A program made the position numbers and the translations under genes. Of a stretch of DNA of 64,000 bases, positions 24,621-27,613 are shown in pieces (positions within the stretch are counted from its first letter, which is position 1; each line of letters starts with the position of its first letter). The notes beneath the pieces are model-generated. The model had not been told where the DNA came from. It saw nothing but the letters and a program-made list of their open reading frames with translations, and did not search any database. This stretch comes from Lacibacter luteus (GTDB lineage Bacteria > Bacteroidota > Bacteroidia > Chitinophagales > Chitinophagaceae). The DNA lies in contig NZ_SDHW01000001.1 of assembly GCF_004118265.1 (NCBI RefSeq), forward strand, positions 62,001-126,000. The letters run 5' to 3'.

Positions 24621-24628
24621 TACATTTG
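24621..24628 (+). promoter_or_regulatory. Candidate -7 element of the cystathionine beta-synthase gene
   Basis: TACATTTG matches TAnnTTTG exactly and lies 23 bases before the ATG at 24652. This argues against the in-frame GTG at 24628 as the start. A well-spaced -33 TTG is not evident. Confidence 0.45.
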
Positions 24629-24651
24629 TGCACTTAACAGAAGAAAATACT

Positions 24652-26010
24652 ATGGATATTAAGAATAACATTCTTGAAACGATTGGAAACACACCCCTCA
24701 TCAGGTTAAACAAAGTAACCCGCAATTTTCCTTGTACTGTGGCAGCAAAGGTTGATTATTTCAACCCCGGCAACTCTATTAAAGACCGCATGGCGTTGAA
24801 GATGGTTGAAATTGCTGAAAAGGAAGGCAAACTAAAACCCGGTGGAACCATCATTGAAGGCACCAGCGGTAATACCGGTATGGGCCTGGCATTGGCAGCT
24901 GTTGTAAAAGGTTATAAATGCATTTTTGTTACTACCGATAAACAATCGAAAGAGAAAGCTGATATACTTAAAGCTGTTGGTGCGGAAGTAATTGTTTGTC
25001 CCACAAATGTTGCTCCCGAAGATCCCCGCAGTTATTACAGTGTTGCTGCACGTTTGGCAAAGGAAGTACCCAACTCCTATCATATGAATCAATACGACAA
25101 TCTTGCAAACAGGTTGGCGCATTACGAAACAACCGGTCCTGAAATATGGAAGCAGACCGATGGAAAAATTACACATCTTGTTTGTACAGCGGGTACAGGT
25201 GGTACTATTACCGGTGCTGCTATGTATTTGAAAGAGAAAAACCCAAACATACAGGTATGGGCAATTGATGTGTATGGTTCATTACTTACAAAGTATTTCC
25301 GCACCGGAGAAATTGATATGGGTGAAGTGCATCCATACATCAGCGAAGGTTTTGGAGAAGACTTCGTTCCTAAAAATTATGAGATGCGTGTTATCGATCA
25401 TTTTGAACAGGTAACCGATAAAGATGGTGCTGTTATGGCCCGTCGTTTAGCAAAAGAAGAAGGTTTATTCTGTGGATACAGTGCCGGCAGTTGTTTGCAG
25501 GGATTAATGCAACTGAAAGATCGCCTGAAGAAAGATGATCTTGTGGTTTGTATTCTGCACGATCATGGCAGCCGTTATGTAGGAAAGATTTATAATGATC
25601 AATGGATGATGGAACGTGGGTTCCTCGATGTAAAAACGTTTAAGGATATTGTTTCATCCCGTGCTCACAACCGCTTAATAAGTGTTGAGCCGGCAAATAC
25701 TGTTGCCGAAACGGTGGAGCTGATGAAGAAATACGATATTGAACATTTACCTGTTATTAAGGATGGTGAGCAGGTTGGTTCTATTTCGGAAAATGGCTTG
25801 TTCAATAAAGTATTTTCTAATCCCGAAATAAAACATGCAGCCGTTGCAGAGGTAATGGAGGTTTCTTTACCTATTGTTGCGTTCGATACGCCAATTGAAC
25901 GCATCAGTTCACTTATTACCAGAGAAAACGGAGCTGTGCTTAGTAAGGATGAAGCGGGCAACTACCATATTGTTACCAAATACGACATTATACAGTCGCT
26001 TACGAAATAA
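24652..26010 (+). CDS. PLP-dependent cystathionine beta-synthase with C-terminal CBS pair
   Basis: 452 residues from ATG 24652 (MDIKNNILETIGNTPLIRLN). The PLP lysine is in FNPGNSIKDRMALKM, the substrate loop is EGTSGNTGMGLA and the phosphate loop is GTGGTITGAAMY, all fold-type II. Residues from about 330 carry two CBS domains (SVEPANTVAETVELMKKYDI; MEVSLPIVAFDTPIERISSL). The enzyme joins serine or an activated serine with homocysteine, or makes cysteine; family members are often called either. The CBS pair suggests control by an adenosyl ligand. A terminator follows directly. Confidence 0.9.
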   Translation: MDIKNNILETIGNTPLIRLNKVTRNFPCTVAAKVDYFNPGNSIKDRMALKMVEIAEKEGKLKPGGTIIEGTSGNTGMGLALAAVVKGYKCIFVTTDKQSKEKADILKAVGAEVIVCPTNVAPEDPRSYYSVAARLAKEVPNSYHMNQYDNLANRLAHYETTGPEIWKQTDGKITHLVCTAGTGGTITGAAMYLKEKNPNIQVWAIDVYGSLLTKYFRTGEIDMGEVHPYISEGFGEDFVPKNYEMRVIDHFEQVTDKDGAVMARRLAKEEGLFCGYSAGSCLQGLMQLKDRLKKDDLVVCILHDHGSRYVGKIYNDQWMMERGFLDVKTFKDIVSSRAHNRLISVEPANTVAETVELMKKYDIEHLPVIKDGEQVGSISENGLFNKVFSNPEIKHAAVAEVMEVSLPIVAFDTPIERISSLITRENGAVLSKDEAGNYHIVTKYDIIQSLTK

Positions 26011-26032: not shown

Positions 26033-26058
26033 AAAAGCCGCTCAACAGCGGCTTTTTT
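26033..26058 (+). terminator. Intrinsic terminator after cystathionine beta-synthase
   Basis: AAAAGCCGCT and AGCGGCTTTT form a perfect 10-bp stem with a CAAC loop and six T. It lies 23 bases after the stop codon, so transcription from the upstream gene should not reach the array region. Confidence 0.9.
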
Positions 26059-26180
26059 AATGTCGGTTATTGCTTTTTAAGCTAAAGAAACTGTTATTTA
26101 CGTAACTACACGAGTGCGTACACGTAGTTTTACGTTATCGGAGGTAAATACCGATGGTTTGAAAAAGAGAAATACTGCTC
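26059..26180 (+). other. Gene-free interval with palindromic upstream sequence
   Basis: Between the terminator and the RNA promoter lies an imperfect inverted repeat, ACGTAACTAC (26100-26109) against GTAGTTTTACGT (26124-26135). A 5-bp hairpin follows (ATCGG 26137-26141, CCGAT 26151-26155), then AAGAG...CTCTT immediately before the promoter. No ORF is present. The position suits an operator for the downstream promoter, but no regulator is identified. Confidence 0.4.
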
Positions 26181-26211
26181 TTGTACACTTTTAACATTGC
26201 TTATACTTTTG
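26181..26211 (+). promoter_or_regulatory. Complete Bacteroidota-type promoter of a stand-alone RNA
   Basis: TTG at 26181-26183, then 20 bases, then TACTTTTG at 26204-26211. Both elements and the spacing fit the TTG-N19-21-TAnnTTTG promoter of this phylum. The predicted start of transcription is about 26218. No coding gene begins downstream for more than 550 bases. Confidence 0.65.
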
Positions 26212-26217
26212 TATCGG

Positions 26218-26640
26218 AAGTTGATTGAAACACAATCGCTGCTAGACTACGAGAAACACCTGAATTAGAAAATCCAAATCCATTAAAAAACCGTAACTAA
26301 TTAATCCAATATCAATTGACTTCCATTTTTTGAAAAACCAGTTTTAAAAATCCAATAAACCTGTAAGAGAACCAAAACAACCGTTGAAAAATCCAAATGA
26401 AATCCTAACTGAAAGAACCGCACCAAATCCTAAAGAAAGACCAAACGAAAAATCCAAGCGTCCTAGGAAGAAAGACCAATCCTAAGTCCTGAAAAACCAA
26501 AAAAAGCCAACCGGATCAGAATTAATCCCTCTGTTGCGGAAAACCAAGAGACCAAAAAGGCTTTATCTAAAAGATCTGGATCCTAAGAAAACCAACGTAA
26601 AATCCAAACGTAATATCCTCTGAAATCCAGATCTTTTTTT
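26218..26640 (+). ncRNA. Candidate noncoding RNA made of an A-rich/CC motif array
   Basis: A transcript of about 420 nt is bounded by a full promoter and a strong intrinsic terminator. It opens with a 5-bp hairpin (GATTG 26223-26227, CAATC 26233-26237). From 26259 to 26628 I count about 33 CC dinucleotides at intervals averaging about 11 nt, each set in A-rich sequence. The motifs fall into types AATCCAA, AATCCTAA, AGACCAA and AAACCAA. Intervals are not multiples of three and every frame has stops, so it is not a gene. The regular single-stranded motifs suggest a multivalent binding RNA (a sponge for an RNA-binding protein or for another RNA), but this is inference. It matches no RNA family I know; tmRNA, RNase P, SRP and 6S features are absent. 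Confidence 0.6.
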
Positions 26641-26646
26641 CTTTTT
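26569..26646 (+). terminator. Intrinsic terminator of the motif-array RNA
   Basis: AAAAGATCTGGAT (26569-26581) and ATCCAGATCTTTT (26625-26637) are perfect 13-bp inverted repeats. They are followed by TTTTTTTCTTTTT. The 43-nt loop is long for a terminator and itself holds four CC motifs. On the other strand only four T follow the stem, so plus-strand transcription is favoured. Confidence 0.7.
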
Positions 26647-26764
26647 ATCTGCATTTAAACGAAGATATTTTGAAAGAAAGATGGAACGTTCCAAAATCCT
26701 AGAATGAGCTACCTGATTCTGTACCAAGAAAACTAAACACCAAAGGAACCGTTCAATTAATTAA

Positions 26765-26815
26765 TTTGCCTGTTTGAAAAATGAAATGAAAAATTTTCAC
26801 GATCAAACAGGCAAA
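26765..26815 (+). promoter_or_regulatory. Perfect 13-bp inverted repeat around the start codon of the receptor gene
   Basis: TTTGCCTGTTTGA (26765-26777) and TCAAACAGGCAAA (26803-26815) are exact reverse complements separated by 25 bases that contain the ATG at 26786. In mRNA the start codon would sit in the loop of a stable hairpin. In DNA the pair could be an operator. Either would control expression of the gene. Confidence 0.65.
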
Positions 26816-27613
26816 CGTGTTTTTATACCATCCCCACCTTTGCGGATTATATCGTTAGTGCCGTCGCTTACCGAATTACTTTATTCATTGCAGCTGGAAA
26901 ATGAGGTAGCTGGCATTACAAAATTTTGTGTTCACCCGGAGAGTTGGTTCAGAACAAAAAAACGTATTGGCGGAACGAAAAATGTTGATGTTAACGCTGT
27001 GCAACTATTACAACCCAACATTGTAATTGCAAGCAAAGAAGAAAATGTAAAAGAACAGGTAGAAGCAATAGCCGCATTTTGCCCCGTTTATTGCTCCGAT
27101 ATAGCCAATTTGAATGATGCATATGAAGCGATTGAACAGATAGGGTTACTTACAGATCGTTCAGCACACGCAAAGGAATTAACGCAGCAAATTAAGCAAC
27201 GCTTTGCGCAAATAACAATTGCAAAGCAAAGCCTGCGCTGCATTTATCTTATCTGGAAAAAGCCCTACATGAGTGCAGGAGGCGATACGTTTATTAACGA
27301 GATGCTTACTGCCGCAGGTTTTGAAAATGTACTGCAGGAACAAAAACGTTATCCCGAAATTACCCTGGAGCAAATAGCAGCATTAAATGTTGATGTTGTT
27401 TTCTTTTCATCAGAACCATTTCCATTTAAACAACAACATATAGATGCGTTTACAAGCGAATGGCAGTACCAAATGCCGCAAATAAAAATGCCTGCACTGC
27501 AAATAGTTGATGGAGAATTTTTCAGTTGGTATGGCAGCCGCTTATTGTATGCTGCTGAATATTTTAAAAAACTGCGGGAAAGCTTATTTTTAAGCGATGA
27601 ATTTACTCATTAA
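26786..27613 (+). CDS. Cobalamin/iron-complex-binding-type receptor protein without signal peptide
   Basis: 275 residues from ATG 26786 (MKNFHDQTGKRVFIP). The upstream TTG at 26774 lies inside an inverted repeat and is less likely. RIISLVPSLTELLYSLQLE and NVDVNAVQLLQPNIVIASKE are hallmarks of the helical-backbone metal receptor fold of BtuF/FhuD-like proteins (COG0614). No signal peptide or lipobox is present, unlike transporter receptors, so it should be cytoplasmic. No permease or ATPase gene is nearby. The next gene overlaps its end by 17 bases. A cobalamin or corrinoid role is a family-level guess. Confidence 0.75.
   Translation: MKNFHDQTGKRVFIPSPPLRIISLVPSLTELLYSLQLENEVAGITKFCVHPESWFRTKKRIGGTKNVDVNAVQLLQPNIVIASKEENVKEQVEAIAAFCPVYCSDIANLNDAYEAIEQIGLLTDRSAHAKELTQQIKQRFAQITIAKQSLRCIYLIWKKPYMSAGGDTFINEMLTAAGFENVLQEQKRYPEITLEQIAALNVDVVFFSSEPFPFKQQHIDAFTSEWQYQMPQIKMPALQIVDGEFFSWYGSRLLYAAEYFKKLRESLFLSDEFTH

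Follow-up and report, generated by a model that had tools for sequence, protein, structure and literature searches.

Within a 64,000-nucleotide stretch of the Lacibacter luteus genome (hereafter the window) lies a short intergenic region that, judged by its sequence, is an independent non-coding gene running from a Bacteroidota promoter to a terminator. The RNA that it would encode is made up largely of short boxes centered on the dinucleotide CC, and it belongs to a real, conserved and previously undescribed family of CC-box array RNAs that is present in multiple copies across the Chitinophagaceae. As the best explanation, given a probability of roughly 0.6, we postulate that such an RNA acts as a multivalent sponge that takes up an RNA-binding protein. 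The initial annotation, made from the letters of the window, had proposed an RNA gene that might titrate a protein or another RNA, or serve as a scaffold; the RNA gene itself stands, being conserved and non-coding, and a protein sponge fits best, while a single RNA partner engaged by base pairing turned out to be less likely.

The locus and its limits

The gene is flanked by a cystathionine beta-synthase-like (CBS) gene, whose start is taken as given in the ORF listing, and by a periplasmic binding protein gene (Table 1). Sequence inspection points to a terminator-like hairpin of the CBS gene's own at 26036-26058. The Bacteroidota promoter of the initial annotation (TTG, 20 nt, then TACTTTTG) was found exactly as described, and its perfect 13-bp terminator was likewise recovered, with the arms AAAAGATCTGGAT (26569-26581) and ATCCAGATCTTTT (26625-26637). 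The transcript predicted for the Lacibacter cauensis orthologue, about 420 nt long, would begin near CGGAAGTT. The lack of an ORF was also borne out, as there is no sizeable forward ORF and the three forward frames contain 7, 10 and 11 stops; moreover, 155 of 171 indels have lengths not divisible by three. Off-frame indels together with many stops in all three frames led us to reject a protein-coding gene, and codon-like substitution, which had been named beforehand as the sign that would speak against an RNA, was not seen. Past the terminator (26655-26705), the window holds a stretch with GGAACGTTCC and CCAAAATCC that is partly kept in other genomes of the genus.

Table 1. Features of the CC-box array RNA locus, in window coordinates
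Feature	Position	Strand	Basis
Cystathionine beta-synthase-like gene (PALP + CBS domain), upstream	24628..26010	+	Pfam
Putative regulator site 1: upstream palindrome CGTAGTTTTACG	26123..26134	+	sequence
Putative regulator site 2: conserved element GTAAATACCG	26144..26153	+	64-promoter majority consensus GTAAaTac-g
Putative regulator site 3: imperfect palindrome GAGAAATACTGCTC, adjoining the -33 box	26167..26180	+	64-promoter consensus g-GcAaTa-TGCtC
Bacteroidota sigma-A-type promoter: TTG (26181-26183), N20, TACTTTTG (26204-26211)	26181..26211	+	sequence and homologous promoters
Inferred ncRNA, CC-box array RNA, ~425 nt	26215..26640	+	promoter-to-terminator span; 33 C-runs; kept in Lacibacter
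5' arm of 14-bp stem closing the 5' domain	26215..26228	+	covariation
Loop of the 5' domain, containing CC boxes (ATCCAAATCCA, AACC, AATCCAA)	26229..26311	+	C-run excess in 59 domains
3' arm of 14-bp stem	26312..26325	+	covariation; MFE fold of the window RNA forms the stem too
Expandable central CC-box array, box number species-dependent	26326..26500	+	sequences, alignment
Possible 3' sub-domain, AAAGCC/GGCTTT closure, CC boxes in loop	26503..26564	+	single-sequence fold, conserved sequence
Intrinsic terminator: 13-bp stem, 43-nt loop holding CC boxes, then T-run	26569..26640	+	sequence
Peripla_BP_2 periplasmic binding protein gene, downstream	26774..27613	+	Pfam PF01497

The CC boxes are counted, spaced and composed beyond chance

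The roughly 33 CC dinucleotides at intervals of about 11 nt that had drawn attention to the locus were confirmed by counting: there are 33 runs of at least two Cs within 26218-26640, 32 of them exactly CC, compared with a mean of 15.9 (sd 2.6, maximum 26) in 5000 composition-preserving shuffles. Their mean spacing is 11.5 nt and its sd only 4.9, against 9.9 +/- 1.8 in block shuffles, none of which (0/2000) was as even, and the gaps, as had been stated, are not codon-phased. All box forms named at the outset are present (AATCCAA six times; AATCCTAA, AGACCAA and AAACCAA three times each), and AATCC occurs 12 times in the interval where 0.8 would be expected. Our genome-wide statements come from pattern searches and from 464 kb sampled from this genome. 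In that sample dense arrays, defined as eight boxes within 150 nt, occur in two places only, namely the present locus and a second RNA gene described below; beyond the latter, most triplet matches returned by the array search lie within ORFs or antisense to them, at a frequency not far above that of the control. Dense AATCCA/ATATCC repeats were also seen in another genus (G023:C2:169587), where they are unlike the RNA family and possibly part of a repetitive gene.

Comparison of 59 non-redundant 5' domains defines the unit as AA[U/A]CCAA. These domains contain 405 C-runs (198 +/- 9 in shuffles), and 388 of the 405 are exactly CC. The base two positions before CC is A with a frequency of 0.78, the base directly before it is U (0.64) or A (0.32), and the base directly after it is A (0.62). 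Neighboring boxes lie mostly 6 to 15 nt apart, spacings of 6-8 nt being the commonest, and gaps below 6 or above 15 nt are avoided. TCC (z +36) and exact CC (z +23) are enriched, while depletion is seen for CCC (z -4.4), for isolated TC (UC in the RNA; z -4.7) and, most strongly, for isolated AC (z -16); these counts indicate that it is exactly two Cs that are selected.

The same counts bear on a Rho decoy, that is, a C-rich, G-poor, weakly structured RNA whose evenly spaced pyrimidine-C steps would load Rho and so lower termination elsewhere. Rut sites are stretches with C over G in which YC steps lie 9-13 nt apart (PMC9160355), and the CC-box RNA is like them in its excess of C over G, its weak structure and its regular pyrimidine-C steps, with the mean spacing of 11.5 nt comparable to theirs. 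Unlike rut sites, however, it shows selection for exactly CC, with both CCC and the isolated UC that Rho also reads depleted; spacings of 6-15 nt are favored rather than 9-13 nt, with the commonest shorter still; and it is a stand-alone RNA whose conserved intrinsic terminator suggests synthesis at full length. On this evidence we reject assignment to rut sites and regard a Rho decoy as unlikely, and indeed quite improbable.

Structure of the RNA

Comparison with orthologues of other genera brought out a 14-bp stem, missing from the initial annotation, that encloses the first ~110 nt. In 70 distinct sequences 92.3% of its cells are paired, with at most 49.1% in slid controls, and 11 cells at 3 pairs are altered on both sides, a number reached in none of 500 shuffles; the alignment was fitted to the covariance model, so that these pair counts are biased towards the model, and relatedness persists in the shuffles. 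The 5' stem is supported by covariation. The 3' sub-domain, which lacks such support, is a tentative model. The arms of the terminator are nearly invariant in 12 genomes of the genus Lacibacter, which explains why RNAalifold found no covariation in the whole genus alignment. With a z of -1.6, the minimum free energy of the full-length RNA falls within the ordinary range, as expected of an RNA that is mostly single-stranded. In predicted ensembles the Cs of CC are unpaired with a probability of 0.70, compared with 0.49 for other Cs.

A shared promoter layout with putative regulator sites

TAnnTTTG or TAnnTTTA stands directly before the 5' domain in 64 of 68 covariance-model matches, and in 53 of the 64 homologous promoters the spacing from TTG to the 5' stem is identical, at 34 nt. 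Since the covariance model does not include the promoter, this provides an independent check on the matches. The 64 promoters have in common the upstream elements, the -33 TTG and the -7 TAnnTTTG, at fixed spacing. The upstream elements are three, recurring at roughly fixed distances: GTAnnnnTAC, which is found in similar form at a comparable position upstream of many family members, GTAAaTAC, and g-GcAaTa-TGCtC, which abuts the TTG. The sole perfect match of the last palindrome in the present genome (G000), and likewise in that of Lacibacter cauensis (G009), is at the CC-box RNA. The three elements look like regulator sites. A search for other genes behind the upstream palindrome returned somewhat more two-mismatch matches than the control, and among the loci returned a promoter follows only at the RNA's own.

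Distribution of the family

A DNA search matched the interval in 13 of 14 genomes of the same genus, the closest named one being Lacibacter cauensis (NZ_VLLE01000002.1), with 91% identity across the interval. When 12 of the genus were aligned, the promoter, the ends and the terminator proved strongly conserved and the number of central boxes variable, and in most comparisons CC is better kept than a lone C (identity ~0.8 vs 0.5). Conservation of the array in relatives, set beforehand as a test of the RNA, was thus found in Lacibacter and in other Chitinophagaceae. A covariance model of the 5' domain, whose E-values are rough, found the RNA in 37 of 103 Chitinophagaceae genera and in 134 of 396 genomes. 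The filters applied were strict and miss arrays that lack the 5' stem, as in G010 and G001. Among 395 genomes sampled from across the class, matches were confined to the Chitinophagaceae. Up to nine copies occur per genome, some in tandem, and in several genomes tandem units, every one with a promoter to itself, follow one another at ~400 to 730 nt. In G282 (contigs C27 and C5) the whole unit from promoter to terminator is tandemly repeated ~410 nt apart; one copy on C5 begins at the contig end, so that the assembly may undercount copies.

Rfam gave no match near the gathering score for this locus or for ten loci with relatives, in agreement with the initial annotation, which knew of no such family, and a literature search of incomplete coverage found no description of a CC-box array RNA family.

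The gene order of CBS gene, RNA and Peripla_BP_2 gene was found again, whole or on one side, in several other genera. The RNA might be read as part of a neighboring gene's transcript, either leader or 3' untranslated region, or as low-complexity sequence without function, given that A-rich intergenic sequence is presumably common in this genome. However, in genome G013 the RNA is separated from the CBS gene by 73 kb and is therefore its own unit; moreover, it carries its own promoter and terminator, occurs in many genera, often in several dispersed or tandem copies, has only one counterpart as dense in the 464-kb sample, and has a stem that covaries. We consider this reading scarcely credible.

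The same box in a second, unlinked array RNA

The second array of this genome is unlinked to the first (G000:C23:167490-167800, minus strand) and has relatives in other genomes of the genus, with three tandem copies in G010. It has another 5' end, promoter and terminator, and upstream of it lies a TAAGT/ACTTA palindrome with TAAGTG-like half-sites. The base frequencies of its boxes are nearly equal to those of the first family: U (0.62) or A (0.31) before CC, and A (0.69), G (0.18) or U (0.13) after it. That two different RNAs have one motif and little else in common suggests that a single ligand binds both. In G012 (contig C67) there is yet another type of CC-box RNA, the third and a shorter one; its two copies lie ~800 nt apart, and each finishes with a GC-rich terminator-like hairpin.

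What the boxes may bind

Several features fit a protein sponge, namely an expandable array of a single box, CCs predicted to be exposed, multiple gene copies and a further, different array RNA built on this box; what characterizes multivalent sequestration of a protein, many exposed copies of one short motif beyond chance, is found here, exposure being predicted. In the mechanism that we propose, a regulator would act at the conserved upstream elements to turn transcription on, and each RNA would then present from fewer than 10 to ~40 single-stranded boxes. The boxes would bind many copies of a protein that recognizes, in A-rich RNA, a U or A followed by exactly two Cs, and sequestration would free the mRNA targets of that protein. 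Taken as a whole, this would amount to a Csr-like system of the Chitinophagaceae assembled from unrelated parts (the upstream sites, one to nine array RNAs and a titrated global RNA-binding protein reading UCC/ACC), a proposal that we offer tentatively and at somewhat less than even odds. To our knowledge, no bacterial regulator has such a UCC/ACC specificity in A-rich single strands.

Sponge RNAs for small RNAs exist in bacteria, and the boxes, being complementary to U-rich GG sequences and mostly unpaired by prediction, might instead pair with a small RNA bearing UUGG or UUAGG loops and titrate many copies of it. A pairing partner should fix the bases that flank CC, yet in both array RNAs U and A precede it at about 2:1 and A, G or U follow it; in addition, CCC is depleted although it would be expected to pair equally well with GG. 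For these reasons, and because exactly two Cs are selected, we favor a protein partner and leave a sponge for another RNA a small though appreciable chance. Many identical sites together with a conserved end domain would suit equally well a scaffold on which several proteins assemble, or an RNA that stores a factor of translation or decay. Against this stands the freedom of the box number to vary between species and copies, and extra gene copies are common, which dosage explains better than a fixed assembly would; a scaffold or storage RNA is thus, in our view, an unlikely reading.

As to the protein, CsrA (PF02599) was found in none of 12 genomes and Hfq (PF17209) in none of 396 family genomes above the cut-off, positive controls being detected in both searches, and both were rejected as partners; an Hfq-dependent small RNA is rejected likewise. 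Because these two are absent and RRM_1 proteins are present in all 12 genomes (one to nine matches each), an RRM-type protein is favored, as the leading prior and no more. The RRM proteins of Lacibacter number four. RRM genes are present also in genomes without an RNA match, and at the RRM loci tested the RNA adjoins one in G083 only, where an RRM_1 gene lies ~1 kb downstream of one RNA copy (G083:C2:81979-83262). For one RRM protein of the Bacteroidota, RbpB, binding is reported to GUAGGAUA but not to UCCUGUGC (PMC12119571), a preference that does not point to a CC box.

Possible targets were sought in the mRNA leaders of the same genome. A first count pointed to AACCA near -22 to -10, but against a first-order Markov expectation its enrichment is weak (z 2.6); ATCCA is not enriched. 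One leader (G000:C23:342299) contains three AACCA-type boxes and ends at an ATG, a possible mRNA target and a single case.

Most Bacteroidota lack the RNA-binding regulators around which small RNA networks are organized elsewhere. An RNA that is conserved, occurs in multiple copies and repeats one putative binding site is a ready bait for a protein that may replace them, and the common promoter layout offers a handle on the controlling signal.

Comparison with known systems

Paralogous multi-copy small RNAs tied to an RNA-binding protein have been described in the Bacteroidota, a phylum without Hfq and CsrA, as FopS/GibS together with RbpB (PMC11697453, PMC12119571), and the CC-box RNAs are alike in these respects. 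FopS and GibS of Bacteroides thetaiotaomicron, however, are Bacteroidaceae RNAs of ~65-70 nt that pair through one seed (PMC11697453), whereas the RNA inferred here has ~425 nt, and no motif array has been described for FopS. We reject membership on length and on the lack of an Rfam match, although the release searched may lack FopS, the structure of which has been deposited in Rfam (PMC11697453).

The closer parallel is with CsrB/CsrC and RsmX/RsmY/RsmZ. CsrB carries 22 and CsrC 14 GGA motifs and they sequester CsrA; RNAs of the CsrB/RsmX type occur in several copies with little sequence conservation, and among them are RsmX genes duplicated in tandem, with a conserved upstream site for their activator (PMC11882849, PMC7911923). 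Like them, the CC-box RNA is a stand-alone intergenic RNA with many short motifs (theirs are up to ~360 nt long), and it has undergone copy expansion, with tandem duplicates and conserved upstream sites. Unlike them, it repeats AA[U/A]CCAA in A-rich RNA instead of GGA, in genomes from which CsrA is absent, and it differs in lineage, promoter type and 5' domain. GGA is not enriched in the window RNA (5 vs 3.2 +/- 1.6 in shuffles) and ANGGA is not found, which together with the absence of CsrA and of an Rfam match led us to reject membership of the CsrB/RsmX family. On this comparison, the best explanation is that the CC-box RNA may be CsrB/RsmX-like in function without being a member of that family.
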